From: Paenibacillus sp.
GTDB lineage: Bacteria > Bacillota > Bacilli > Paenibacillales > YIM-B00363
Length of the DNA: 40,955 bases
Direction of reading: 5' to 3'
Assembly: GCA_031181325.1 (NCBI GenBank)
Contig: JAPSKX010000023.1
Coordinates: forward strand, 1-40,955
Notes under the pieces: generated by a model
The model's database searches: none
What the model saw: the letters and a program-made list of their open reading frames with translations, nothing else
Told to the model about the DNA's origin: nothing
Translations under genes and position numbers: made by a program
Shown: piece by piece, positions 4,647-16,053 of the stretch
How the letters are laid out: each line of letters begins with the position of its first letter
Position numbering within the stretch: the stretch's first letter is position 1

Positions 4647-4919
4647 TTGGATTGTAAACACCATGCGGGCACCGCCGCCGTCCGGCAATGCCGACACTGC
4701 GGCGCTTTCCTGTGCGAAAGCTGCTACGACGCGGAGCGCGGCGGCTGCCATGCCGGCTCCGGCTGTACGGCCGTTCCCTACGCGCCGAAAGAAGGCTACA
4801 TCCCCGGCAAGAACATGTGGATCAAGACGCTCGTCTCGATCCTGGCGATCATCGGCGCTATTACGGTGCTGCTGTTGGCGTTATGCGCCGGCATTATTTT
4901 CACGAGCAACTTTAGCTGA
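4647..4919 (+). CDS. Small B-box-like zinc-binding membrane protein, 90 aa
   Basis: The start is taken as TTG at 4647, because GGAGGAGG at 4632-4639 is ideally placed and the conserved-looking part begins there. Residues 3-40 have paired metal ligands: Cys3/His6, Cys15-x2-Cys18, Cys23-x2-Cys26 and Cys34/Cys40, resembling a B-box zinc finger. A hydrophobic segment follows at about 63-85 (LVSILAIIGAITVLLLALCAGIIF), leaving a very short C-tail, so the zinc module probably faces the cytoplasm from a single anchor. The stop is 16 bases before the TTG of the Lgt-like gene, whose Shine-Dalgarno begins just after it, which argues for co-transcription. Role unknown; a scaffold or regulatory partner of the two downstream membrane-lipid proteins is inference. 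Confidence 0.75.
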   Translation: MDCKHHAGTAAVRQCRHCGAFLCESCYDAERGGCHAGSGCTAVPYAPKEGYIPGKNMWIKTLVSILAIIGAITVLLLALCAGIIFTSNFS

Positions 4920-4935
4920 GCTGGAGGCGGATTCG

Positions 4936-5718
4936 TTGTCGTTCCCTGTTTACATCCACATCGGCGATTGGCAGCTGCATCCGCACGTCGTATTCGAATC
5001 GCTGTCGTATTTCATCGGCTTCCGGGTCTACCTGCGGACGCGAACGAAGGGCGGCGTTCCGACGCTCGTCGGGCTGCAAATCCTCGCCGGCGCCATGGTC
5101 GGCGCCGCGGCGGGCTCGAAGTTGCTGTTCTGGCTGGAGGATCCGCTCACCACCTATTCGCACCTCGCCGCGGGCGATTGGACCGCGATGCTCGCGGGGA
5201 AGACGATCGTCGGAGGCCTCCTCGGCGGACTGATCGGCGTCGAGCTCGCCAAGCGCTGGGCCGGCTGGAGCTCGTCGACCGGCGACGACTTCGTGCTGCC
5301 GCTCGTCGTCGGCATGGCGATCGGCCGCATCGGCTGCTTCCTGACCGGCCTCGACGACGGCACGCACGGCACGCCGACGAGCTGGCCCGTCGGCGTCGAC
5401 TTCGGCGACGGCGTGCCGCGCCATCCCGCGCAGCTGTACGAGATCGCGTACCTGCTCGCGATCGGCACGGCGCTGAGCGCCCTTCGCAGGCGCATTCGGC
5501 GCGGGGACGCGTCGCTGCCTGCGGGCGCCGTGTTCCAATTGTTCATGGTCGCTTACTTGCTCTTCCGATTCGCGATCGACTTCGTCAAGCCTACGCCGCA
5601 CGTCTACTTCGGGCTCAACAACATCCAGCTCGCCTGCGCGGCGGGGCTGATCTACTATGCCGGATTGATGTCCCGATGGCTCGATCCGAAGAAACGGGGG
5701 ATGCGCCATGCCCGCTAA
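4936..5718 (+). CDS. Lgt-like (prolipoprotein diacylglyceryl transferase family) membrane protein, 260 aa
   Basis: The start is TTG at 4936 with GGAGG at 4923-4927; an in-frame extension upstream overlaps the zinc-protein gene and is discarded. The polytopic protein has the Lgt signature in altered form: GRIGCFLTGLDDGTHG followed by PVGVDFGD and RHPAQLYE, with C-terminal helices (FQLFMVAYLLFRFAIDFVKP). True Lgt transfers diacylglyceryl from phosphatidylglycerol to the lipobox cysteine. Here the usual H-G-G-L stretch reads TIVGGLLGG, so the histidine of that motif is absent. I infer a paralogue with a different acceptor, not the housekeeping Lgt. It overlaps the radical SAM gene by 11 bases, so translation is probably coupled. 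Family assignment is good; reaction unknown. Confidence 0.85.
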   Translation: MSFPVYIHIGDWQLHPHVVFESLSYFIGFRVYLRTRTKGGVPTLVGLQILAGAMVGAAAGSKLLFWLEDPLTTYSHLAAGDWTAMLAGKTIVGGLLGGLIGVELAKRWAGWSSSTGDDFVLPLVVGMAIGRIGCFLTGLDDGTHGTPTSWPVGVDFGDGVPRHPAQLYEIAYLLAIGTALSALRRRIRRGDASLPAGAVFQLFMVAYLLFRFAIDFVKPTPHVYFGLNNIQLACAAGLIYYAGLMSRWLDPKKRGMRHAR

Positions 5719-7132
5719 TCGACCTTATTTATTCCACGAGCTGACGAACAGCATCTGCTCGACGTGCTTCCGCAAAGCGGAGGCGAAGATCGTCGTCGAG
5801 GACGACAAGGTGTTCATGTTGAAGCGATGCCTTACCCACGGTCCGGAAAAGGTGCTCCTCTCGACCGACGTCGAGTACTATATGCGCTGCCGCGCATTCG
5901 TCAAGCCGGCGGAGATGCCGCTGCGCTGGAACACGCCGATCCGCTATGGCTGCCCGTACGACTGCGGACTGTGCCCGGATCACGAGCAGCACAGCTGCCT
6001 CACCTTGATCGAGGTGACGGATCATTGCAATCTGCAGTGCCCGATCTGCTACGCCGAGTCGGCGCCGCATCGAACGTCGTACCGCTCGCTCGAGCAGATC
6101 GAAGCGATGTTAGATACCGTCGTCCGTAACGAAGGCGAGCCGGACATCGTGCAGATCAGCGGCGGGGAGCCGACGACGCATCCGAACTTCTTCGAGATAT
6201 TGGATCTCGCCAAGTCGAAGCCGATCAAGCATCTGATGGTGAATACGAACGGCATTCGCATCGCGCAGGACCGCGCGTTCGCCGAGCGGCTCGCGTCGTA
6301 CATGCCGGGGTTCGAAATTTATTTGCAGTTCGACAGCTTCGAGGCGGATACGCTGAAGGAGCTGCGCGGCGCGGACCTGCGCGGCATTCGAGAGAAGGCG
6401 CTTGCGCATCTGAACGAGTTCAACGTCTCGACGACGCTCGTCGTCACGCTGAAGAAGGGGCTTAACGACGGGGAGATCGGGAAGATCATTCAGTACGGGG
6501 TGCGGCAGCGGGCGGTACGGGGCGTAACGTTCCAGCCGATTCAGGCCGCGGGGCGGCTCGGCGAATACGATCCGGCGACCGACCGGCTGACCGTCAGCGA
6601 GGTGCGGCGCGGCATTATCGAGCAGTCCGGCATCTTCCGCGACGAGGATATGGTGCCGGTGCCTTGCCATCCGGACTGCCTGTCGATGGGCTACGCGTTG
6701 AAGCTCGGCGGCGACGTCGTGCCGCTCACCGGCATGATCGATCCGGCGGTGCTGCTCGAGGGCGGGCGCAATACGATCGTGTTCGAGTCGGACGAGACGC
6801 TCCGGTCGCAAATCTTCCAGCTGTTCTCTACGGCGCACTCGCCGGAGTCGTCCGCGCTGTCGCTGAAGAGTCTGCTGTGCTGCCTGCCGATGGCGGCCGT
6901 GCCCGATGCAATCGGCTATGACAACGTGTTCCGCGTCATCATCATGCAGTTCCTAGACCCGTATAACTTCGACGTCCGTTCGGTGAAGAAGTCCTGCGTG
7001 CACATCGTGCACCCGGACGGGCGGGTCATTCCGTTCGACACGTACAATATGTTTTACCGGGACGATAAGGAGCGGCTGCTCGCGGAGCGCAAGGCGGAGA
7101 TCGCGGCGGCGTTCGGGTTCGGGGGAACATAG
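5708..7132 (+). CDS. Radical SAM enzyme of the tetraether lipid synthase (Tes/MJ0619-like) family, 474 aa
   Basis: The radical SAM core has Cys107, Cys111 and Cys114 in CNLQCPICY and SGGEPT at 151-156. Around it is an unusual cysteine array: CSTC at 17-20 with Cys41 and Cys61 (a rubredoxin-like set), GCPYDCGLC with Cys82/86/89 and Cys97 just before the core, CHPDC at 320-324, a CC pair at 391-392, and Cys430 near the C-terminal HPDGRVIPF and YNMFYR. This matches the layout I know from archaeal Tes (MJ0619), which joins two lipid tails by C-C bond formation with several Fe-S clusters and one mononuclear iron. The ATG at 5708 overlaps the Lgt-like gene. A lipid substrate is inferred from family and neighbour. 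A strong terminator follows. Confidence 0.85.
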   Translation: MPANRPYLFHELTNSICSTCFRKAEAKIVVEDDKVFMLKRCLTHGPEKVLLSTDVEYYMRCRAFVKPAEMPLRWNTPIRYGCPYDCGLCPDHEQHSCLTLIEVTDHCNLQCPICYAESAPHRTSYRSLEQIEAMLDTVVRNEGEPDIVQISGGEPTTHPNFFEILDLAKSKPIKHLMVNTNGIRIAQDRAFAERLASYMPGFEIYLQFDSFEADTLKELRGADLRGIREKALAHLNEFNVSTTLVVTLKKGLNDGEIGKIIQYGVRQRAVRGVTFQPIQAAGRLGEYDPATDRLTVSEVRRGIIEQSGIFRDEDMVPVPCHPDCLSMGYALKLGGDVVPLTGMIDPAVLLEGGRNTIVFESDETLRSQIFQLFSTAHSPESSALSLKSLLCCLPMAAVPDAIGYDNVFRVIIMQFLDPYNFDVRSVKKSCVHIVHPDGRVIPFDTYNMFYRDDKERLLAERKAEIAAAFGFGGT

Positions 7133-7154: not shown

Positions 7155-7196
7155 AAGCTGCCCTTGTTGTCTTTCGACGACGAGGGCAGCTTTTTC
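7155..7196. terminator. Rho-independent terminator, probably bidirectional
   Basis: Perfect 10-bp stem AAGCTGCCCT / AGGGCAGCTT followed by TTTTT on the plus strand. It closes the Tes-like operon and lies immediately beyond the stop codon of the convergent LamG-like gene, so it may serve both. Confidence 0.88.
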
Positions 7197-7198
7197 CA

Positions 7199-7957
7199 TT
7201 ACATCCGCATCGTTCCGATGCTCCGCATCTCCTCCGCCGTCAGCGCCCGGTCGAACACGGCCAGCCCGCCGAGCGCTCCCGCGTACCAATTCCCCATCTC
7301 CCCGGCCCGGTACACCGCGCCGACCGTGAAATCCGCGCCGTCCGGCCCGCCGTCGAACAGTCCGCCCTCGTACCGATACGGATTGCGATCGCCTCTCGCG
7401 TCGAGCTCTCCGTTCAGGTATGTCTTAACCCAAACCCCGTCATAGGTGAAAGCGACGCATTGCCATATCCCGAGGGGCACCGGCGTTCGCCCGATCGACG
7501 CATCCATGCAGTACTTATATCCCGGCGTCGGTCCGCCGATCGACGACACATGGCCGGCCGCTTGCTGCGCGCTGTCCCAGATGCCGAGGTTCAGAAACAA
7601 GCAGTATTGCCGCTGGCGCAGCGTCTCGTTCCACATCCCCGCCACAGCCTCGCATTCGTTGCTTCCCTTCTTCGCCTCCCGCTTCACCCAAGCGATCACC
7701 GACACCTCCGCGTTCGGGCCGTGCGCGTTCAGCGCCGACGCCTCCGGCCTCGGGAGCGACAGCCAGGTACCGCCTCCGAAGCGCGCCGAATACGGGCCGA
7801 ACACCCCGTCCGCCGCCCGTTCGACCGGACCTCCTCCCTCCTTCAGCCGAAGCGGGATCGGCCCTCGGGACGCTCGCTCCTCGCCGGCATCCTCCTGCAT
7901 ATCCCAGAAGGCGATCAGCCCGGGGGCGTTCAACACGACATCGACGATACGATCCAT
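7199..7957 (-). CDS. LamG-like (concanavalin A-like) domain protein without signal peptide, 252 aa
   Basis: The whole protein reads as one LamG/laminin-G type jelly roll: APGLIAFWDMQED at the start, YSARFGGGTWLSLP, SVIAWVKRE, IWQCVAFTYDGVWVKTYLNGE, and the typical closing GALGGLAVFDRALTAEEMRSI. Such domains bind sugars or have lost catalysis. The ATG at 7957 has AAGGAGGAA just upstream and no in-frame extension adds a signal peptide, so the product appears cytoplasmic, odd for a carbohydrate-binding fold. It is the last gene of the ABC-transporter operon, 91 bases after the solute-binding protein gene. A cytoplasmic role in handling or modifying the imported glycan is possible but inferred. 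Confidence 0.85.
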   Translation of the reverse strand: MDRIVDVVLNAPGLIAFWDMQEDAGEERASRGPIPLRLKEGGGPVERAADGVFGPYSARFGGGTWLSLPRPEASALNAHGPNAEVSVIAWVKREAKKGSNECEAVAGMWNETLRQRQYCLFLNLGIWDSAQQAAGHVSSIGGPTPGYKYCMDASIGRTPVPLGIWQCVAFTYDGVWVKTYLNGELDARGDRNPYRYEGGLFDGGPDGADFTVGAVYRAGEMGNWYAGALGGLAVFDRALTAEEMRSIGTMRM

Positions 7958-8048
7958 TCCCGTTCCTCCTTCAGGATTGCCGGAGCCGGCGCCGCCTTGC
8001 GACGAATCGCGAGCGGGCCCCGGCTCTCGCGCAAGCGATTCCGTCGAA

Positions 8049-9545
8049 TTACTGCTTCGTATACCATTCGTTCATCGCATCGATCGCGGCCTTGCCGCCC
8101 TTCGCGTTGAACTCCTCGACGAACTTGTCGAACTCGCTCAGATCGCGCTTGTTCATAATAAACTTGAGGGCATTCTCTTCGGCGTAGTTCCGCAGCTCGG
8201 TGAACTTCGTATCCCACGCTGCGATGGAAGGGGCGTAGGCCGTTTCTTCCCGGACCTGCTTATGCGCCGTCAGCGGCTCGTAATACGGCATGAATCCCTT
8301 GGCCTCGAGCCTCGCGAAGAAGCTGGGATCCGTGTCCGACAGGAAGTACAGCGTTCGCCACGGAATCGCGTTGCTCTGCTCCGCCGTTTGCACGACCTTG
8401 CCGTCTTCTACCGTATAGTCTTCGCCCTCGATGCCGAACGTCGTGACCCGGTCCGCTTCCTCCCCGAAGATGAAGTTGAAATATTCCGCGGCCCCGATTT
8501 TGTTCTTCGCCTGCTTGGGAATGACCTGGTACAAGGAAGTCAATCCTTGCTCGGGGATGCCCGAATGTCCGTCCTTGCCGATCGGGGGAGCCGCGTAGCG
8601 AATGACGCCGCCGGTCTGCTTCTCCGCGATCGAGCGGTCGATCGTGAGCGCATCGGCCCAATAGGTCGTGCTGACGGCGGCCGTGCCGTTGATCATCCGG
8701 TCCTTCACATCCTTGTTGATGGCGAATTCCTGATCGATCAACCCTTCCTCGTACCACTGCTTCATCGTCTCGAGGAATGCCATGTATTCCGGTTGAAGCC
8801 AGGCGAACTCGAGCTTGCCGTCCTTCGCGACCGTCGTCGTGCCGACGCCGAAGGCGCCGGCGAACGGCGCGAACGCGCTCGTGAACCCGCCCGGATTCGA
8901 AGCGGCTGCGGTCAAGGGCGAGATGTCGTATTTCTCTTTCAGCGTCTTCATCGCCGCATACAGCTCGTCGAGCGTCGTCGGCTCGGCGAGGCCCGCCTCC
9001 TCGAACAAATCCCATCGAAGCAGCACGCCGGCGCCGACCTTGGCCGCCGCCCGGTGCGGAATCGCGTACAGCTTCCCGTCGTACCGGACGGCGTCGAGCT
9101 CTTCCTTCGAGAAGACGGTATCCAAATTCGGAATGTACTGCGCGACGAGATCGTCCAGCGGCTCGAACGCCCCCTGCTGCGCCAGCTTGAAGTAGTCCGC
9201 CTTGCCAGGAATCCACAAGATGTCGGGAACGTCTCCGGAAGCGAGCACCACGGAAATCTTCTGCGCGACGTTATCTTTCGGCAGCGGCTCGTACGTCACG
9301 TTGTAGCCGGACTTCTCGCGGAGCAGCTTGATGAGCTTGTTGTCGTTAATATTGTCCGAACCTTGGAACTGTTCTAGCGAGGCGTGGTACGTGCGCATGA
9401 TCTTCAATTCCTTGCTCTTGGTACCGCCCTCGCCCGAGCCGGCCCCTCCGGTCGTCGACGGGCTCCCGGCTCCCCCGCACGCCGCCGTCGTCGCGACGAG
9501 CAGCGTCCCCGCGAGAAGCGCCGCCGATCTCTTCTTCGTGATCAT
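8049..9545 (-). CDS. Extracellular solute-binding lipoprotein (LplA/YtcQ type), 498 aa
   Basis: A lipoprotein signal peptide ends at TTAAC-type lipobox residues ATTAAC, lipidated Cys23, followed by a Gly/Ser linker. The rest has the family 1 solute-binding fold: VVLASGDVPDILWI near residue 110, and long helical lobes. The length of ~500 residues is typical of the Paenibacillus/Bacillus LplA-YtcQ group, which captures oligosaccharides outside the membrane for the two permeases encoded just upstream in the transcript. AGGGAGG precedes the ATG. The energising ATPase is not in this operon; in this group an MsmX-like shared ATPase is normally used. Substrate unknown. Confidence 0.93.
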   Translation of the reverse strand: MITKKRSAALLAGTLLVATTAACGGAGSPSTTGGAGSGEGGTKSKELKIMRTYHASLEQFQGSDNINDNKLIKLLREKSGYNVTYEPLPKDNVAQKISVVLASGDVPDILWIPGKADYFKLAQQGAFEPLDDLVAQYIPNLDTVFSKEELDAVRYDGKLYAIPHRAAAKVGAGVLLRWDLFEEAGLAEPTTLDELYAAMKTLKEKYDISPLTAAASNPGGFTSAFAPFAGAFGVGTTTVAKDGKLEFAWLQPEYMAFLETMKQWYEEGLIDQEFAINKDVKDRMINGTAAVSTTYWADALTIDRSIAEKQTGGVIRYAAPPIGKDGHSGIPEQGLTSLYQVIPKQAKNKIGAAEYFNFIFGEEADRVTTFGIEGEDYTVEDGKVVQTAEQSNAIPWRTLYFLSDTDPSFFARLEAKGFMPYYEPLTAHKQVREETAYAPSIAAWDTKFTELRNYAEENALKFIMNKRDLSEFDKFVEEFNAKGGKAAIDAMNEWYTKQ

Positions 9546-9600
9546 CGTTGTAACCCTCCCTTTCGAATCTTGGTTATATGAGGGCGCGGGCCCGACCCAC

Positions 9601-10467
9601 CTACCCCTTCACCGCGCCTAACATAACGCCCTTGACGAAATACTTCTGAACGAACGGGTACACGCATAGGATCGGAACGACCGCGCAGATAATCGCCGCG
9701 GCCCGGATCGTCTCCGGCGCGACTTCCCGAAAGACGTCGCTGAGCACCATATCCGCGCTCTTCTCGTCGGTGACGAGCTGCAGCAGGAACATCTGCATCG
9801 GCATCCATCGCCTCTCGGTAATGTACATCATGGCGTGGAAGAAGCTGTTCCAATAGCCGACCGCGTAAAACATCGAGATCGTCGCGATCGCCGGGACGGA
9901 CAGCGGCAAGTAGATCGAGCATAAGATCCGCCAGTTGCTCGCCCCGTCCATCCGCGCCGACTCCTCGAGCGCGTCCGGAACCGACAAGAAGAAGTTGCGA
10001 ATCAGGATCAGATTGAACGGCGACAAGGCGACCGGCAGGATGAGCGACCATAGCGTGTTCAGCAGCGAGAGCTCCTTCACGACGAGGTACGTCGGAATGA
10101 TGCCGCCGCTGAAAAACATCGTGATCACGAACGCCAGCATCAGCCAGCGCGAATACGGCAAATTGTTCCGCGACAGCGGGTACGCCGCCAGCGCCGTAAG
10201 CGCCATGGACATCGCGGTCCCGACGACCGCCAGGAAGACGGAATTCATGAAGGAGTACAGAAACTGTTTATTTTCCAGCACGTACCGGTACGAGGATAAA
10301 GTAAACCCTTTCGGCCATAAGATCACATCCTTCGCCAGCACGTAGGCTTCGCTGCTGAGCGACTTCGCCGCGATATGAAAGAACGGCAAAATCATCGACA
10401 GCGACAAAAGCGACAATAGCAGCACGTTCGCGTATTGGAACCAACGTTCTCCTCTCGAACGAATCAA
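9601..10467 (-). CDS. Carbohydrate ABC transporter permease (LplC/YtcP type), 288 aa
   Basis: Six-helix permease of the CUT1 class. The cytoplasmic EAA loop reads EESARMDGASNWRILCSIYLPLSVPAIATI (about residues 176-205), where the ATPase docks. The start is TTG at 10467, with GGGAGGG six bases upstream. It lies between the other permease gene (15-bp gap) and the solute-binding protein gene, the standard LplB-LplC-LplA order. The C-terminal VMLGAVKG matches the family. It would form the membrane channel with the preceding permease to import an oligosaccharide that I cannot specify. Confidence 0.93.
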   Translation of the reverse strand: MIRSRGERWFQYANVLLLSLLSLSMILPFFHIAAKSLSSEAYVLAKDVILWPKGFTLSSYRYVLENKQFLYSFMNSVFLAVVGTAMSMALTALAAYPLSRNNLPYSRWLMLAFVITMFFSGGIIPTYLVVKELSLLNTLWSLILPVALSPFNLILIRNFFLSVPDALEESARMDGASNWRILCSIYLPLSVPAIATISMFYAVGYWNSFFHAMMYITERRWMPMQMFLLQLVTDEKSADMVLSDVFREVAPETIRAAAIICAVVPILCVYPFVQKYFVKGVMLGAVKG

Positions 10468-10482
10468 CCGGTTCCCTCCCTT

Positions 10483-11421
10483 CTAGAAGATGCCCTCTTC
10501 GCCCATGCGCCGAGCGAGCCAATTGGCGCCGACCAGAAGCGCGCAGCCGATGACGGACTTGAACAATCCCGCGGCGGTCGTCAAGCCGAATTGCATCTGA
10601 CCGAGGCCGACCCGAAAGACGTACGTATCGATAATGTCCGCCACGTCGTACACGGTCGCGTTGTACATGACGAGCACCTGCTCGAATCCGGCGTCGAACA
10701 CATGACCGATGCGCAGCAGCAGCAAGATGACGATCGTCGAACGAATGCCGGGCAGCGCGACATGCCAGATTTGCCTGAGCCGATTGGCGCCGTCGACGCG
10801 GGCCGCCTGGAACAATTCGTCGTTAATGCCGAGCAGCGCGGCGAGGAAGACGATGGCGCCCCAGCCCGCTTCCTTCCAAATATCGGAGAAGACGAGGATC
10901 CAGCGGAACCATCGCTCGTCCGACATAAAGAAAATCGGTTCGAAGCCGAGCATCTGGATCCCCTTATTCACGATCCCGCTGCTCGGGGACAGCAGGTCGA
11001 TGAAGATGCCGCCGACCACGACCCAAGAGATGAAGTGGGGAATATACGTGATCGTCTGCACCGCCCGTTTGAACTTCTCGAGCACGAGCTCATTGAGCAG
11101 CAGGGCGAGCAGAATCGGGGCCGGGAAGCCGATGACGAGCTTCATGAGGCTGATTACCAGCGTGTTGCGCACGACGCGCGGAAATTCGTCGAATAGGAAC
11201 AGCTCCTTGAAATATTGCAATCCGACCCAAGGGCTGTTCAGAATGCCTTGAATGACATTGAAATCTTGGAAGGCGATGACGACGCCGTACATCGGCGCAT
11301 ACTTGAACAGCAGCAAGAACAGAAGCGCCGGAGCCAGCATCAAGTACAAATCCCAGTATCGAAGCCCGGATCGTCTCGGCTTCGCGCCCGTCTCGGCTTG
11401 CGTCTTTGCGATCGTTTCCAT
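10483..11421 (-). CDS. ABC transporter permease (LplB/YteP type), 312 aa
   Basis: The N-terminus reads YWDLYLMLAPALLFLLLFKYAPMYGVVIAFQDFN, the usual opening of LplB/YteP permeases, and the EAA loop is ELFQAARVDGANRLRQIWHVALPGI. I chose the ATG at 11421 because GAGGGG stands just before it; a longer frame to 11463 has no Shine-Dalgarno and runs into the promoter. It is the first gene of the transporter operon. Its promoter region carries the 30-bp element shared with the Rieske gene, which suggests activation by the adjacent YesM/YesN-like pair. Confidence 0.93.
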   Translation of the reverse strand: METIAKTQAETGAKPRRSGLRYWDLYLMLAPALLFLLLFKYAPMYGVVIAFQDFNVIQGILNSPWVGLQYFKELFLFDEFPRVVRNTLVISLMKLVIGFPAPILLALLLNELVLEKFKRAVQTITYIPHFISWVVVGGIFIDLLSPSSGIVNKGIQMLGFEPIFFMSDERWFRWILVFSDIWKEAGWGAIVFLAALLGINDELFQAARVDGANRLRQIWHVALPGIRSTIVILLLLRIGHVFDAGFEQVLVMYNATVYDVADIIDTYVFRVGLGQMQFGLTTAAGLFKSVIGCALLVGANWLARRMGEEGIF

Positions 11422-11458
11422 AATCCCCTCCCTGCGGTCTAGGTTTCCGTCTGTTCTA

Positions 11459-11464
11459 AGCATA
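11459..11464 (-). promoter_or_regulatory. Candidate -10 box of the transporter operon
   Basis: TATGCT on the minus strand, 37 bases before the permease ATG. It lies 31 bases downstream of the shared 30-bp element, almost exactly the spacing seen at the Rieske promoter. No good -35 hexamer is visible, as expected for a promoter needing an activator. Confidence 0.45.
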
Positions 11465-11495
11465 GAGGTTCTAAGGAAATTCTCGTATCCCGGTT

Positions 11496-11525
11496 GTTTG
11501 ACTTTGGGCGCAACTATTTTTACTT
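11496..11525 (-). promoter_or_regulatory. Shared 30-bp element, copy A (putative activator site)
   Basis: On the plus strand the block begins GTTTGACTTTGGGCGCAACT, then AT, then TTTTACTT. It matches the element at 16503-16532 in 28 of 30 positions (first 20 identical). It ends 74 bases before the permease start, against 73 bases at the other copy. Position just upstream of the -35 region fits an AraC-type activator; the YesN-like regulator encoded alongside is the obvious candidate, by inference. Confidence 0.7.
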
Positions 11526-11533
11526 GTTCCCGG

Positions 11534-11553
11534 CCGGCGCCAGGCGGCGCCGG
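11534..11553 (-). terminator. GC-rich hairpin after the response-regulator gene
   Basis: Perfect 8-bp stem CCGGCGCC / GGCGCCGG with a 4-nt loop, five bases past the response-regulator stop. No T run follows, so termination is uncertain. It may partly insulate the transporter promoter from read-through of the regulatory operon. Confidence 0.4.
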
Positions 11554-11558
11554 AAGCG

Positions 11559-13157
11559 CTACGGCTTATACACTTCGCTCGGCTTGACGCCCCAATATTT
11601 CGCGAACGCCTTGGAGAAATAATTGACATGCCGGTACCCGACCCGTTCCGCCGTCTCGTACACCTTATGTCCCAGCGCCAACAATTCCTTCGCTTTCTCC
11701 ATGCGCAGCTTCAGCACGAATTCGGAGAAGGACGCGCCCGCGACCTTCTTGAACGTCCGGCTCAAGTAGGAGTAATTGACGTATAGCTGTTCCGCGACCA
11801 GGAATAAGCTCAGCTCTTCGTCGTGAAGCCTCTCCTGAATGAACCGAATCACCTCGCCGACCGTGATCTGGGTGCCGGATTGGCGGCGCTCGGCGATCGT
11901 CCGGCTCACGCGCTCCGTCATTCGGCGCAGCCATTCCGATATTTGCTCCCGCGTCAGCAGCTCGTAATAGCGTTCGAAGTCGTCCGCATCGCCCGCCAAC
12001 GCCTCGCGAAGCGTCCAACCGTGCGCATGCACGATGCGCGTCAGCATGCACACCATGCGCAGCAGCGATTCCTTGGCATCGGCGACCGGCCGATTCGGGG
12101 CGAAGCCGACCTCCATGATGCGCGCGAGCCACTCCCGGACCGAAGCGTCGTTCCCCGTCTCGATCGCCATCTCCAGCTCCTTCTCGATGCCCCCGAACGC
12201 CGCCCAGGAATCGTTCGGCGCCTGCGCGTCGCGGAACGAGATGCTCATCCCGTTCCCGAGCACGACGCGCTCCTGCAGCGCCATGCGGCTTTGCCGATAC
12301 GCATGCGGCAAGTACAGCTTGTTCGCGACCGGCGCGCCGATGCCGGCGCTGGCCGTCAGCTTAAGGCAATCCTTCGCCGTGGCGAGCAGCAGGTCGATCT
12401 GGTGATGCACCGACGTCTGCCAGGCGTCGTCGGGCTCTTGCGCAGGGGCGAAAAACAAGATCGCCGTCATCCCGTCGTCGTCCTGCAGCGTCACGCAATC
12501 GAGCGCGGCGAACACGTCGCGCGCGATTGTGTACAACGCGAACTGGACCAACGGACGATCCGTTGCGCGAAAACGGTCGGTCCCTTCCGGAATCGGGTCC
12601 ATATCGACGACGATCGGCCACAGCCGTTTTCCGTCGAGCCGCTCCTTCAGCGTGCCGCTCCACTTTTCGATTTCCCACAAGGAGTACCGGTCGTTCAACC
12701 AATTTTTATAGAAAATGTTCCTAAGATGCGGCAGATGCTCCTCCCAGCGATGCTCCAGCACGGACAGCCGGTGCTTCTCAAGCAGCTCGCGTTCGCGCAG
12801 CGCCTTCGCTTCCATTATCACTTCCTGCAGCTGTTCGTTGCTCGCCGGCTTGATTAGAAACTTATAAACACCGTGCTCGATGCTTTCTCGCGCATACTCG
12901 AAATCGTCGTACCCCGTCAAAATAACGACCTTGGTTTCGGGTTGATGCGCCTTCGTCCACCCGGCCAGCTCGAGACCGCCCATATTCGGCATCTGAATGT
13001 CGGTCACGATCAGATCGACATGCTCCCTCTGCAAAATGCCGACCGCCTCGCTCCCGGAGCCGACCGCATCCACCAGCTCGAGCTCCGGCAGCTCGCGCAC
13101 GCATGCGGCGATCCGTTCCCGGACATACAACTCGTCTTCCACGATAAGCAGCTTCAT
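11559..13157 (-). CDS. YesN-like response regulator with AraC-type DNA-binding domain, 532 aa
   Basis: The receiver domain (1-120) has the acidic pocket (VEDE), phospho-acceptor Asp53 in VTDIQMP, and Lys103 in FLIKPAS. A long middle region resembles the degenerate cyclase-like linker typical of YesN proteins. The C-terminal ~100 residues are an AraC double helix-turn-helix (LSLFLVAEQLYVNYSYLSRTFKKVAG and VYETAERVGYRHVNYFSKAFAKYWGVKPSEVYK). It overlaps the kinase gene by four bases (ATGA), so the pair is translationally coupled. In this family the regulator activates a neighbouring sugar transporter operon, here starting 138 bases downstream. The repeated 30-bp element before the permease and Rieske genes is its likely target. 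Confidence 0.95.
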   Translation of the reverse strand: MKLLIVEDELYVRERIAACVRELPELELVDAVGSGSEAVGILQREHVDLIVTDIQMPNMGGLELAGWTKAHQPETKVVILTGYDDFEYARESIEHGVYKFLIKPASNEQLQEVIMEAKALRERELLEKHRLSVLEHRWEEHLPHLRNIFYKNWLNDRYSLWEIEKWSGTLKERLDGKRLWPIVVDMDPIPEGTDRFRATDRPLVQFALYTIARDVFAALDCVTLQDDDGMTAILFFAPAQEPDDAWQTSVHHQIDLLLATAKDCLKLTASAGIGAPVANKLYLPHAYRQSRMALQERVVLGNGMSISFRDAQAPNDSWAAFGGIEKELEMAIETGNDASVREWLARIMEVGFAPNRPVADAKESLLRMVCMLTRIVHAHGWTLREALAGDADDFERYYELLTREQISEWLRRMTERVSRTIAERRQSGTQITVGEVIRFIQERLHDEELSLFLVAEQLYVNYSYLSRTFKKVAGASFSEFVLKLRMEKAKELLALGHKVYETAERVGYRHVNYFSKAFAKYWGVKPSEVYKP

Positions 13158-14893
13158 CGATTCCCGTCCTTTCCCGCGGGGAACGTTAACGCGACGATCG
13201 TCCCTTCCCCGTATGCGCTGTCGATTCGCAAATCCGCCGCGTCTCCGTAATACAGCTTCAGACGCGACTTTACGTTCTTGAGTCCGAAATACCGGCTGAA
13301 CGGCCGATCGCCCTCGACGCGATACGAGCGGCTCGTGATGTTGTCCAGTTCGCTGCGGAGCGACTCCAGCTCCTTCTCGTCCAGCCCGATGCCGGTGTCC
13401 TCGATCTCGATGCGAAGCATGTCGCCGTCCATCCGCGAGCGAAGATGCAGCTCGCCGCCTTCGGGGGACTTGGATAAGCCGTGAACGATGGCGTTCTCCA
13501 CGATCGGTTGCAGCAGCAGCTTCAATACGGGGACCTGCTTCGTGTCCGCGTCCAGCGAGACGTCGACCGTGAACCGGTCGGTGCGGAGCTGCTGCACTCG
13601 AATGTAGTACATTAAGTGCTGCACCGTCTCCTCCAGCGTGAACGCGTCGCGTCCCTTGCCCAGACTGACGCGGAAGAACTGCGCCAAATTCATCACCATC
13701 TCGCTGATCGTGCGCATGCCGTGCTTCGTGGCGACCGAATAGATCGAATCCAGCGTGTTATACAGAAAATGCGGATTGATCTGCGACTGCAGCAGGCTGA
13801 ATTCCGATCGCGCGAGGCGAAGCTCCTTCTCGTAATCCTCTTCGATCATTTTGCGCTGCGCCTCGGCCATCAGGTTGAACGCATTCATCAGGTAGCCGAA
13901 TTCGTCCTTGCGCCGATGGGCGATCTGCGCCGTCAGGTTGCCGCCGCTGAACTGCTTGATCGCCTGCGACATGAGCTGCAGCGGCTTCGCGATCTCGTTA
14001 TAGACGAGCCACGCGATCCATATCGCGAGCAGCGCGCTCATCGCGATAATCAGGTACGTCAGCCGCTGCAGCTGCCGCGGCTGGCGGAACAGCTCGTCCC
14101 GCGGCTGCTCCATCGCGATCGACCATGTGCCGTTGTCTTCCTCGATGCGAATGAACGCGTCTTCCGAACGGCCGTCGCCTTTGGGGTTGCTCTCCAGGAC
14201 GATATGGCCGTTGTAATATAACGAGACGTCCGTGTTCGGCGACGTATGAAGATGTTGAATAATGTTGCGCAGCGATGCCTTGTCGACGACCAGCACCATG
14301 ACGTTCGGCTCGCCCGTGTTGCCGAACACGTCGAGCAGGCGCGCGTAATAAAGATGCCCCATGTCGAGGTAAGCGGACCGGACGCCGTCCGTCGGGGAAG
14401 GCGCGTAGACGACCAAGCCGCCGCCCGCGTCGATCGTCTGCCGGAACCACGCTTCCTCCTTTACCTGCGGCCACCTCATCCCTCCCGCGAGCGTCGACAC
14501 CCCGCTCCCGCTCTCGCCGTGGAGAAGGAACGCCTCCTTCACCGCCCCGTTCACGTTCGTAAGCGCTGTCAACTGCTGCTGCACCGTATGGACCTCGTAC
14601 AAATTATCGCGGCGGAGCGGATCGTCCACGTCGCTCCAGACATCGACGAGGTTCGGATTCGAGCCGATCAACAGCGTCTGCTGGTCCATGTTCTTCGTCA
14701 GCTCGTCGATATACTCGAGCGTCGTCAGCAGCGCCCCTCGGGTACGATCCGTAATTTGGTCGTGTACCATGCGATGCGAATAATCGTTCGCGAACAGGCT
14801 GACGCCGACGAGCGGCAGCAAAATCATCAGGAACGTCATCGTTAATTTGAATTGGATGGAGTGCCAATGGAACGCCCGCCCGCGCCGTGTCAT
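13154..14893 (-). CDS. YesM-like sensor histidine kinase, 579 aa
   Basis: TM1 spans about residues 16-36 and TM2 about 283-303, with a large extracellular sensor between them. A HAMP segment follows (IAKPLQLMSQAIKQFSGGNLTAQI), then the His_kinase domain with QINPHFLYNTLDSIY containing the phospho-histidine, then HATPase_c (IVENAIVHGLSK, DTGIGLDE, FGLKNVKSRLKLYYG). I set the start at ATG 14893, preceded by GAGGGGG; the frame stays open far upstream but that part overlaps the amidohydrolase gene and is not coding. Such kinases sense extracellular sugars, often with a solute-binding protein. It is coupled to the response-regulator gene. Confidence 0.95.
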   Translation of the reverse strand: MTRRGRAFHWHSIQFKLTMTFLMILLPLVGVSLFANDYSHRMVHDQITDRTRGALLTTLEYIDELTKNMDQQTLLIGSNPNLVDVWSDVDDPLRRDNLYEVHTVQQQLTALTNVNGAVKEAFLLHGESGSGVSTLAGGMRWPQVKEEAWFRQTIDAGGGLVVYAPSPTDGVRSAYLDMGHLYYARLLDVFGNTGEPNVMVLVVDKASLRNIIQHLHTSPNTDVSLYYNGHIVLESNPKGDGRSEDAFIRIEEDNGTWSIAMEQPRDELFRQPRQLQRLTYLIIAMSALLAIWIAWLVYNEIAKPLQLMSQAIKQFSGGNLTAQIAHRRKDEFGYLMNAFNLMAEAQRKMIEEDYEKELRLARSEFSLLQSQINPHFLYNTLDSIYSVATKHGMRTISEMVMNLAQFFRVSLGKGRDAFTLEETVQHLMYYIRVQQLRTDRFTVDVSLDADTKQVPVLKLLLQPIVENAIVHGLSKSPEGGELHLRSRMDGDMLRIEIEDTGIGLDEKELESLRSELDNITSRSYRVEGDRPFSRYFGLKNVKSRLKLYYGDAADLRIDSAYGEGTIVALTFPAGKDGNR

Positions 14894-14988
14894 GCTCCGC
14901 CCCCTCATCTCTCGGATTTTCGTATTTTGGATCGGGAGAAAATGAAACGCAAAAGGAGAGGCGCGTTCGCCCCTCCATGCGCCTCCCG

Positions 14989-16053
14989 TTACGGAAGCTT
15001 GAACAACGCCTTCGCGTTGTCTCGGTAAATTTTCTCCTTCTTCTCCATCGGCAGCTGCCTTAGGATTTTCCGCGGATCGTCGAAATCCCAATGCGGGTAA
15101 TCGCTCGAAAACAGCAGCATGTTTTCCGCGTCGAACATGTCGAAGATCGACATGAGATGCTTCGGATTGTCCGGCTCCTCGATCGGCTGCGTGGTCATAT
15201 AACAATGGTCCCGCACGTATTCGCTCGGCAGCCGCTTCAGCCACGGCGTCGAGGAACGCAGCGCCTTGAAGTTCTTGTCCAGCCGCCAGAGCAGCGGCGG
15301 AAGCCACGAGACGCCGCCCTCGCTAAGGACGACCTTGAAGCCCGGATACTTCTCGAACACGCCCTCGCACACGAAGCTCACGAGGTGCGCCATGTACGTC
15401 TGCGGCAGACAGGTGTGCCATTGCAAGTAGTTGCTGACGTACCCGACCGCCGTCGGCGGATTGAAGATGCCGGCCCCCTCCGCGCCGGGGTGAATGACCA
15501 GCGGCAATCCGTTGCGCTCGCATGCCTCGTAGACCGGATAGTAGTATCGATGGCCGTACGGCATCGGAGAACCGCCGACGACGGAGACGCCCACGATGTC
15601 GGGATGCGGGCCGATCCGGTCGATCTCGCGCGCGGCTTCCGCGGGATCCTGCATCGCGACGCACAGGAAGCCCTTGAACTTCGGGCTGACCGGGAACCAT
15701 TCCGCGATGACGTAGTCGTTGTACGCCCGGCATACCGCAGCCGCGTAGTCCGGATCGGCGAACGCCGACACGCCGATGACCGCGTCGGAACAGAGCAGGG
15801 CGTAATCCATATGGAACGGCTCGATCAGATGCTCGATCATATATTCCGGGTCCGAACCGACCGGCAGGCCGCTCGGCGGATTCGCATCCTTGCGCTTATT
15901 GCCGATCGGCGAGATGTATGGCAGACCGCCCCCCCTCAGTCCGGCTTGACTCTTCCATGCGTCGTCCAAGTAAGGGAACAGGTCGTCTCCGCTGCGAAAC
16001 CCGTTATGTACGTCGCAATCGACGATCCCCCGAATCTCCTTCTCCTGTGTCAC
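14989..16053 (-). CDS. Amidohydrolase-2 family metal-dependent hydrolase/decarboxylase, 354 aa
   Basis: TIM-barrel protein of the amidohydrolase-2 (ACMSD-related) family. Visible metal-site elements are D14-V-H16 near the N-terminus, LVIHPG mid-protein and SSDYPHWDFDDP near the C-terminus. Members hydrolyse lactones or amides, or decarboxylate aromatic-type acids. I set the start at GTG 16053 because GGAGGAGG lies just upstream; the longer open frame covers the Rieske gene on the same strand and is spurious. It follows the Rieske gene by 19 bases and precedes the kinase gene by 95, so one transcript is likely. Its substrate is unknown. Pairing with a Rieske ferredoxin and a sugar-type transporter is unusual. 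Confidence 0.9.
   Translation of the reverse strand: MTQEKEIRGIVDCDVHNGFRSGDDLFPYLDDAWKSQAGLRGGGLPYISPIGNKRKDANPPSGLPVGSDPEYMIEHLIEPFHMDYALLCSDAVIGVSAFADPDYAAAVCRAYNDYVIAEWFPVSPKFKGFLCVAMQDPAEAAREIDRIGPHPDIVGVSVVGGSPMPYGHRYYYPVYEACERNGLPLVIHPGAEGAGIFNPPTAVGYVSNYLQWHTCLPQTYMAHLVSFVCEGVFEKYPGFKVVLSEGGVSWLPPLLWRLDKNFKALRSSTPWLKRLPSEYVRDHCYMTTQPIEEPDNPKHLMSIFDMFDAENMLLFSSDYPHWDFDDPRKILRQLPMEKKEKIYRDNAKALFKLP

Follow-up and report, generated by a model that had tools for sequence, protein, structure and literature searches.

The window analysed here is a stretch of 40,955 nucleotides from Paenibacillus sp. (contig JAPSKX010000023.1), whose source genome comprises 5.08 Mb in 334 contigs and is 81% complete. 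Three open reading frames (ORFs) on its plus strand form an operon. A small membrane protein of 90 amino acids (4647-4919, TTG start) is followed by an Lgt-like membrane protein of 260 amino acids (4936-5718, TTG start, PF01790) and by a radical S-adenosylmethionine (SAM) enzyme of 474 amino acids (rSAM; 5708-7132, PF04055), which has the fold of Tes and belongs to a clade of its own. Tes is the tetraether lipid synthase that fuses membrane lipids in archaea, and Lgt is the prolipoprotein diacylglyceryl transferase, by which lipids are attached to proteins. The last two genes overlap by 11 bases (5708-5718), and a terminator-like hairpin of 17 pairs (7155-7192) closes the operon. The gene positions and the overlap given by the original prediction agreed with the ORF check. 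The likeliest reading of the operon, to which a probability of about 40% may be attached, is that it encodes a dedicated lipidation module.

Linkage of the rSAM and Lgt-like genes

Across phyla and beyond chance, genes for the rSAM are repeatedly found together with Lgt-like genes, accompanied by a small membrane protein of some type. The loci compared were 84 in number (80 of 123 relatives, which were kept, the window and three loci from its own genus) and 83 of them are distinct, L003 and L006 being one locus entered twice. At 82/84 rSAM loci an Lgt-like ORF is present; of the other two, L070 begins at a contig edge, and the 6 kb upstream of L067 contain none. Among the 81 pairs whose spacing was counted, with L003 left out, 26 overlap, 33 are 0-50 bp apart, 15 are 51-200 bp apart, 6 are more than 200 bp apart and 1 is permuted.

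Three genome samples were drawn independently of the scan that gave these loci, each including its centre genome, which was known beforehand to hold the pair. Of 398 genomes of Bacilli, 27 carried the rSAM (E<=1e-200), and exactly these also carried the Lgt-like gene, always adjacent; two further genomes hold TrsS-like proteins only (L107 by family score and neighbours, L106 by tree position). The phylum sample around Oscillatoria (L059; 244 genomes) gave eight rSAMs and seven Lgt-like genes, seven of them shared, with the weak matches of G463 uncounted, and that around Granulicella (L061; 247 genomes) gave 14 rSAMs (E<=1e-150) and 15 Lgt-like genes, 13 of them shared. Summed over 889 genomes, both genes are held by 47, among 49 with the rSAM and 49 with the Lgt-like gene, so that the co-occurrence on which the original prediction depended was found; as the genomes are related, these counts are not independent events. 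The pairs in the phylum samples are not always adjacent, the genes lying about 2.5 kb apart in G707 and on separate contigs in G443 and G740. The pair has also been found on a plasmid of Persicobacter (Bacteroidota). A pair of bacterial type lies on a contig (L085) assigned to a metagenome-assembled genome of Thermoplasmatota (Candidatus Poseidoniales archaeon), which may be misbinned.

At 20/21 rSAM loci from outside the clade, with flanks mostly of <=1.5 kb, no Lgt-like gene matched strongly, and the same was true of 7/8 wider stretches. The exception in both sets is G849 (L135/L157), a sister of the clade. Its rSAM (L157, 1-5152) is without the CC pair described below, and an Lgt-like gene (194 bits) lies about 1 kb off. 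It is possible that G849 represents an intermediate state of the pairing.

No title or abstract in the literature searched describes such a gene pair, in agreement with the earlier statement that no operon of this composition has been characterised. The parts belong to known superfamilies; what seems to be undescribed is their combination, together with the altered cluster region of the rSAM and the third component.

The two enzymes compared with Tes and Lgt

The rSAM matches PF04055 (2.7e-21). Its best match among solved structures is 7tol (E 1.5e-64), which belongs to Tes, or GDGT-MAS (MJ0619; 7tol, 7tom; NF045702), and not to another radical SAM family. The fold match, obtained with a predicted model, extends over the whole length of the protein, and the overall fold is that of Tes; structural matches absent from the listings were not counted as evidence. 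The motifs read earlier are present: GCPYDCGLC (81-89), CNLQCPIC (107-114), CHPDC (320-324), CC (391-392) and Cys430 ahead of HPDGRVIPF. The conserved N-terminal set, first described as four cysteines, consists of three cysteines and one histidine (C17-x2-C20-x20-C41-x2-H44), with the spacing reported for MJ0619 (PMC9433317; this paper and those below are cited from partial texts). In 54 clade rows, duplicates included, the residues of this rubredoxin-type site are kept in 52 each for C17, C20 and C41 (two rows gapped) and in 50 for H44. The N-terminal auxiliary cluster, also common to Tes, is retained (C82, C86 and C89 in 52-53/54; H92 and H95 in 53/54 each), as is the radical SAM CX3CX2C motif (C107 53/54, C111 53/54, C114 54/54).

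Family scores and the C-terminal region set the clade apart from Tes. The cut-off of NF045702 (450 bits) is missed by the window rSAM (283 bits) and by four other clade proteins (252-289 bits), whereas a bacterial Tes-like control (L141) reaches 567 bits. The C-terminal region was compared in 43 distinct clade rows, 6 middle rows and 17 distant rows, TrsS being among the distant ones. Cysteines occupy positions 324, 429 and 444 in 17/17, 16/17 and 16/17 distant rows, respectively, and in 5/6 middle rows at each place. In the clade, by contrast, Cys324 occurs in 28/43 rows, position 429 is S, T or A, and position 444 is D or E; position 433 is I or M. The clade adds an invariant pair, Cys391-Cys392 (codons at 6878-6883), present in 43/43 clade rows, with no Cys there in the 23 non-clade rows, three of which are gapped. 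Cys430 is fixed in the clade (43/43) and is found in 6/6 middle and 5/17 distant rows; Cys320 occurs in 42/43, 6/6 and 11/17, respectively. At the place of Met439, 28/43 clade rows have M, and at that of Tyr459, 42/43 have Ile. The Tes variants M439A, Y459F and Y459L have been reported to be active (Lloyd et al., PMC9433317), so changes at these two places alone need not abolish Tes chemistry. As judged from the alignment, with the cluster-ligand cysteines of MJ0619 assigned by conservation rather than from the structure file, the C-terminal auxiliary-cluster region differs from that of Tes. The rSAM is a relative of Tes along its whole length, as had been proposed, yet it is not Tes itself. 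The rSAM tree was used for the unity of the clade alone, because several non-clade rows have long branches. The bacterial membrane-spanning lipid synthase Mss, which has been reported to conserve the Tes catalytic architecture (PMC13274423), is set beside the clade by description only.

Several other identities were rejected. The radical SAM (seleno)protein TrsS (NF045646) gives the top NCBIfam score of the window rSAM, but its 312 bits miss the cut-off of 490 bits, which a TrsS control from a genome of the Bacilli (L107, G293) passes with 654 bits. In L107, the rSAM is clustered with a DVU_1556-family methyltransferase, a DVU_1555-family C-GCAxxG-C-C protein, a DVU_1553-family AMP-dependent ligase and an XdhC-family gene, with no Lgt-like gene; by eye, L106 (G355) has a similar cluster. 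This TrsS type is another branch of the Tes fold with a different partner set, and DVU_1553-1556-type neighbours were not found among the genes scanned on both sides of the window rSAM. The Pfam name Zn_ribbon_HMPTM presumably echoes the old annotation of MJ0619 as a pterin methylase. That annotation could not be corroborated according to the available text of PMC9433317, nor did the analysis give any pointers to pterin, and this identity was set aside. An in-frame stop or selenocysteine in the rSAM of G085 was rejected, the TGA being the terminal stop; two stops have also been reported for G542.

The Lgt-like protein belongs to the Lgt family, as predicted (PF01790, 3.8e-22, 79.2 bits against a cut-off of 24.9; 5azb), and misses the Lgt equivalog TIGR00544 (34 bits against 118.9). 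It shares with Lgt the fold and the RHPxQLYE motif. Arginines at the places of E. coli R143 and R239 are found in 80/80 rows each (window Arg131 and Arg211; the latter codon at 5566-5568), and R143, R239 and Y235 are kept in 27/27 and E202 in 26/27 of the rows numbered against E. coli. In the same 27 rows, other residues are replaced: Y26H, H103V/I and N146C in 27/27 and R246K in 26/27. The place of H103 (window Val92, 5209-5211) is V in 75, I in 4 and R in 1 of 80 rows, V or I occurring there in none of 28 canonical Lgt rows, among which H103 varies between phyla. The N146 place is Cys in 80/80 (window Cys134; Arg131 to Cys134 at 5326-5337), and N146C also occurs in 9/28 canonical rows. The place of Y26 depends on the alignment, one pairing E21 and another H17, and those of E151 and G154 fall in a gap in some alignments only. 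The Lgt-like proteins form one branch (SH-aLRT 100). Another, higher-scoring Lgt is encoded in 25/25 genomes with the Lgt-like gene, and the source genome has its own separate Lgt; the identity of a housekeeping Lgt was therefore rejected. By analogy with Lgt, the protein may transfer a diacylglyceryl group to a Cys thiol. The second Lgt of Mycobacterium smegmatis, MSMEG_5408, has been reported to carry Y26H and N146C as well; the available part of that paper mentions no radical SAM partner (PMC13251419).

The small membrane protein and its helix cysteine

The small protein of the window combines an N-terminal Cys/His zinc-finger-like part with one helix and a 10-residue tail. Its gene precedes the pair on the plus strand, as described earlier; its zinc-finger family matches all lie below the curated cut-offs (B-box 14.9 bits against 24.1), and the type is found upstream in Paenibacillaceae, at 21/84 loci. 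Most other Bacillota and some cyanobacteria (47/84 loci by BLAST clustering) have a 3-helix protein of about 100 amino acids with a Q..Y..P pattern, located downstream, or upstream in L028. The two types are nearly exclusive, only 2/84 loci holding both, and in the genus of the window one replaces the other (L005 versus L001/L004). In several Acidobacteria, at least two tandem 2-helix proteins lie between the Lgt-like and rSAM genes (L061, L077, L080, L082, L124, L125). Many of these carry a GLCG or GMCG motif, as in LLSFGM-CGAAL and LVAAGL-CGAGS of L077. L072 and L074 have two different downstream genes, and proteins resembling signal-peptide lipoproteins were recognised by eye in L057/L111, L113 and L115.

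The feature common to these proteins is a run of positive charges followed by a hydrophobic helix with Cys at its far end, as in LLLAL-C (window), LLNAA-C, LLNGG-C (Oscillatoria), IMNAG-C (planctomycete) and VIGTGI-C (Persicobacter). In the window this residue is Cys80 (codon at 4884-4886; LLLALC-AGIIFTSNFS), a candidate lipid acceptor, and by the positive-inside rule, judged by eye, the helix is probably N-in. At 46/47 loci of the 3-helix BLAST cluster and at 21/21 of the zinc-finger cluster, a Cys is present among the 22 C-terminal residues; the sole miss, L015, was an ORF in the wrong frame, and the true ORF has the Cys. These cluster counts are fairer than the Cys conservation in 41 aligned rows, which is circular, Cys having been part of the search pattern.

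A rule for helix-Cys ORFs was applied to the 79 of 83 loci with full flanks. At KD>=1.2, such an ORF lies on the same strand beside 75/79 clade loci, versus 17/79 on the opposite strand. The controls gave 8/70 for a stretch lying 2.5 kb off and 3/27 for non-clade entries, with 3/27 on their opposite strand; these 27 entries are 21 distinct loci, six having been fetched twice with different flanks. When the threshold was varied over five values, with the tail either limited or not, the clade counts were 62-75/79 (same strand) and 6-22/79 (opposite strand), and the controls 3-15/70 (far), 0-3/27 (non-clade) and 1-5/27 (their opposite strand). A strict rule (KD>=1.6) over 126 clade entries, duplicates included, found 71 on the same strand and 13 on the opposite one. 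As the rule was framed after inspection of the loci, its counts show enrichment and do not amount to a blind test. A helix-Cys ORF is also present in L105 and L168, which were obtained after the helix Cys had been noticed, and in G707 one directly follows the Lgt-like gene (L150).

A candidate lipidation module and its alternatives

The original prediction had treated the small protein as an accessory to a system making a membrane-spanning lipid. Nothing found shows such a lipid to be made, and the helix-end Cys, being common to most loci, turned the reading towards protein lipidation. The gene linkage, the residue changes and the recurring Cys are computed results, and both folds come from predicted models; we infer the chemical steps, their order and the topology. 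The small protein would be inserted with its N-in helix ending at the outer membrane face, where the Cys would stand in a non-canonical lipobox-like setting. The Lgt-like enzyme, with the arginines for binding and activating phosphatidylglycerol kept, would move a diacylglyceryl group onto this Cys, and would be its natural partner because the E. coli counterpart works on the periplasmic side. The cytosolic Tes-fold rSAM would modify the acyl chains by tail-to-tail coupling or by insertion of sulfur or another group, acting either on free phosphatidylglycerol before transfer or afterwards. The result would be an unusual anchor, or an unusual lipid around the anchor. The exchange of small-protein architectures while the helix Cys stays is as expected of an acceptor, and the tandem copies fit. 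If the rSAM couples tails like Tes, the anchor could be membrane-spanning. A whole pathway unlike Lgt-LspA, in which the Lgt paralog joins an rSAM-tailored, possibly tail-coupled and membrane-spanning glycerolipid to the helix-end Cys, giving an anchor that crosses or stiffens the membrane, is a doubtful proposal.

In lipoproteins with a signal peptidase II lipobox, positive charges precede an N-in hydrophobic helix, and the Cys marks the outer end of that helix. The helix-end Cys of the small proteins resembles this setting; unlike lipobox lipoproteins, the two main types have it 7-20 residues from the C-terminus and do not match the consensus.

Several observations weigh against lipidation. 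The canonical lipobox consensus is met by 1/126 helix-Cys hits, a total used alone since the sorting patterns favoured non-canonical sites. The 3-helix protein conserves further residues, e.g., G and N in 40/41 each, and its role may go beyond that of a substrate. Some loci, acidobacterial ones among them, have no recognisable helix-Cys gene nearby (L122/L163, L127-L129/L160-L161 and L073). The rule finds none at L085, though a helix-Cys ORF lies further downstream, and L036 and L081 fail it but have the zinc-finger type. The pairing is likewise broken at L067, with its 6 kb upstream free of an Lgt-like gene, in G417 and G889, which have the rSAM without the Lgt-like gene, and in G671, where the reverse holds. 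The CC stretch has a predicted local distance difference test (pLDDT) score below 50 in the rSAM model, so that ligation of a C-terminal cluster is unseen; the stretch may bind a cluster or line a lipid pocket. Finally, Y26, H103, N146 and R246 have been reported as essential in E. coli Lgt (PMC4728403, PMC13251419), and their replacement means that the Lgt-like protein may be inactive or use another substrate, although, as noted above, H103 varies among phyla and N146C is also seen in canonical rows.

Bulk lipid synthesis is an alternative, although an unlikely one. The rSAM would couple iso-branched phosphatidylglycerol tails into diabolic-acid-type lipids, with the Lgt-like protein trimming or exchanging the head group and the small protein serving as a scaffold. 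The whole-length Tes fold, with its rubredoxin-type site, N-terminal cluster set and CX3CX2C motif kept, is consistent with this, and the activity of the Tes variants mentioned above makes two of the clade's departures compatible with tail coupling (PMC9433317). Iso-diabolic-acid lipids are known from some Bacillota (Clostridia, Tissierellia), and a list of species with homologs of Mss and Ger includes five Paenibacillaceae (PMC13274423); bacterial Tes homologs have been proposed for such lipids by Zeng et al. (PMC8941075). However, the Cys positions of the C-terminal cluster region are unlike those of Tes-like proteins, the Tes cut-off is missed by 5/5 clade proteins tested, and the recurring helix Cys is left unexplained. 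It appears less probable that the rSAM modifies the small protein itself, by RiPP-like (ribosomally synthesised and post-translationally modified peptide) or thioether chemistry involving the Cys or its surroundings, and that the Lgt-like protein later attaches or removes a lipid, even though the varying types and tandem copies resemble precursor peptides and the next structural matches of the rSAM include the peptide maturases SkfB and SuiB. Least probable is a lipid-binding or lipid-presenting Lgt-like partner without transferase activity, the helix Cys being structural or redox-active, for although four residues reported as essential in E. coli are replaced together, the retention of R143, R239, Y235 and E202 would be unexpected if catalysis were lost.

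If the lipidation module is real, an unusual lipid is joined to a small membrane protein in bacteria of several phyla by a route distinct from housekeeping lipoprotein processing, and the function of a Tes relative lies in anchoring proteins and not in bulk membranes. There may also be some relevance for paleoclimate studies. With thresholds of E < 1e-50 and identity > 20%, Zeng et al. arrived at a count of bacterial Tes homologs, which they proposed as possible makers of branched tetraethers (PMC8941075), and a Black Sea survey reported Tes homologs in 281 bacterial metagenome-assembled genomes (PMC11868695). Such counts may sweep in sequences like those of this clade, with its changed cluster region and different partner.

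The neighbours of the operon on both sides are ordinary genes. Upstream, on the opposite strand, lies a gene for an fn3/F5_F8-type-C protein. Downstream, on the minus strand (7202-15307), genes for a laminin-G-like protein, a solute-binding protein, two permeases and a two-component system make up an ordinary uptake locus.

On plasmids of Mycolicibacterium vanbaalenii (L169, 5989-8357) and Haloarcula halophila (L170, 4974-7084), a Tes-fold rSAM is directly followed by a gene with a methyltransferase domain; a partner of this kind was sought and is absent beside the window rSAM. Haloarchaea are described as making archaeol only (PMC8941075), so this plasmid branch probably has a role other than tetraether synthesis. 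Among the acidobacterial matches listed (e.g., L104), most hold a protein, mostly an open frame of 620-860 amino acids, with a region matching the rSAM profile at about E 1e-36 to 1e-45.

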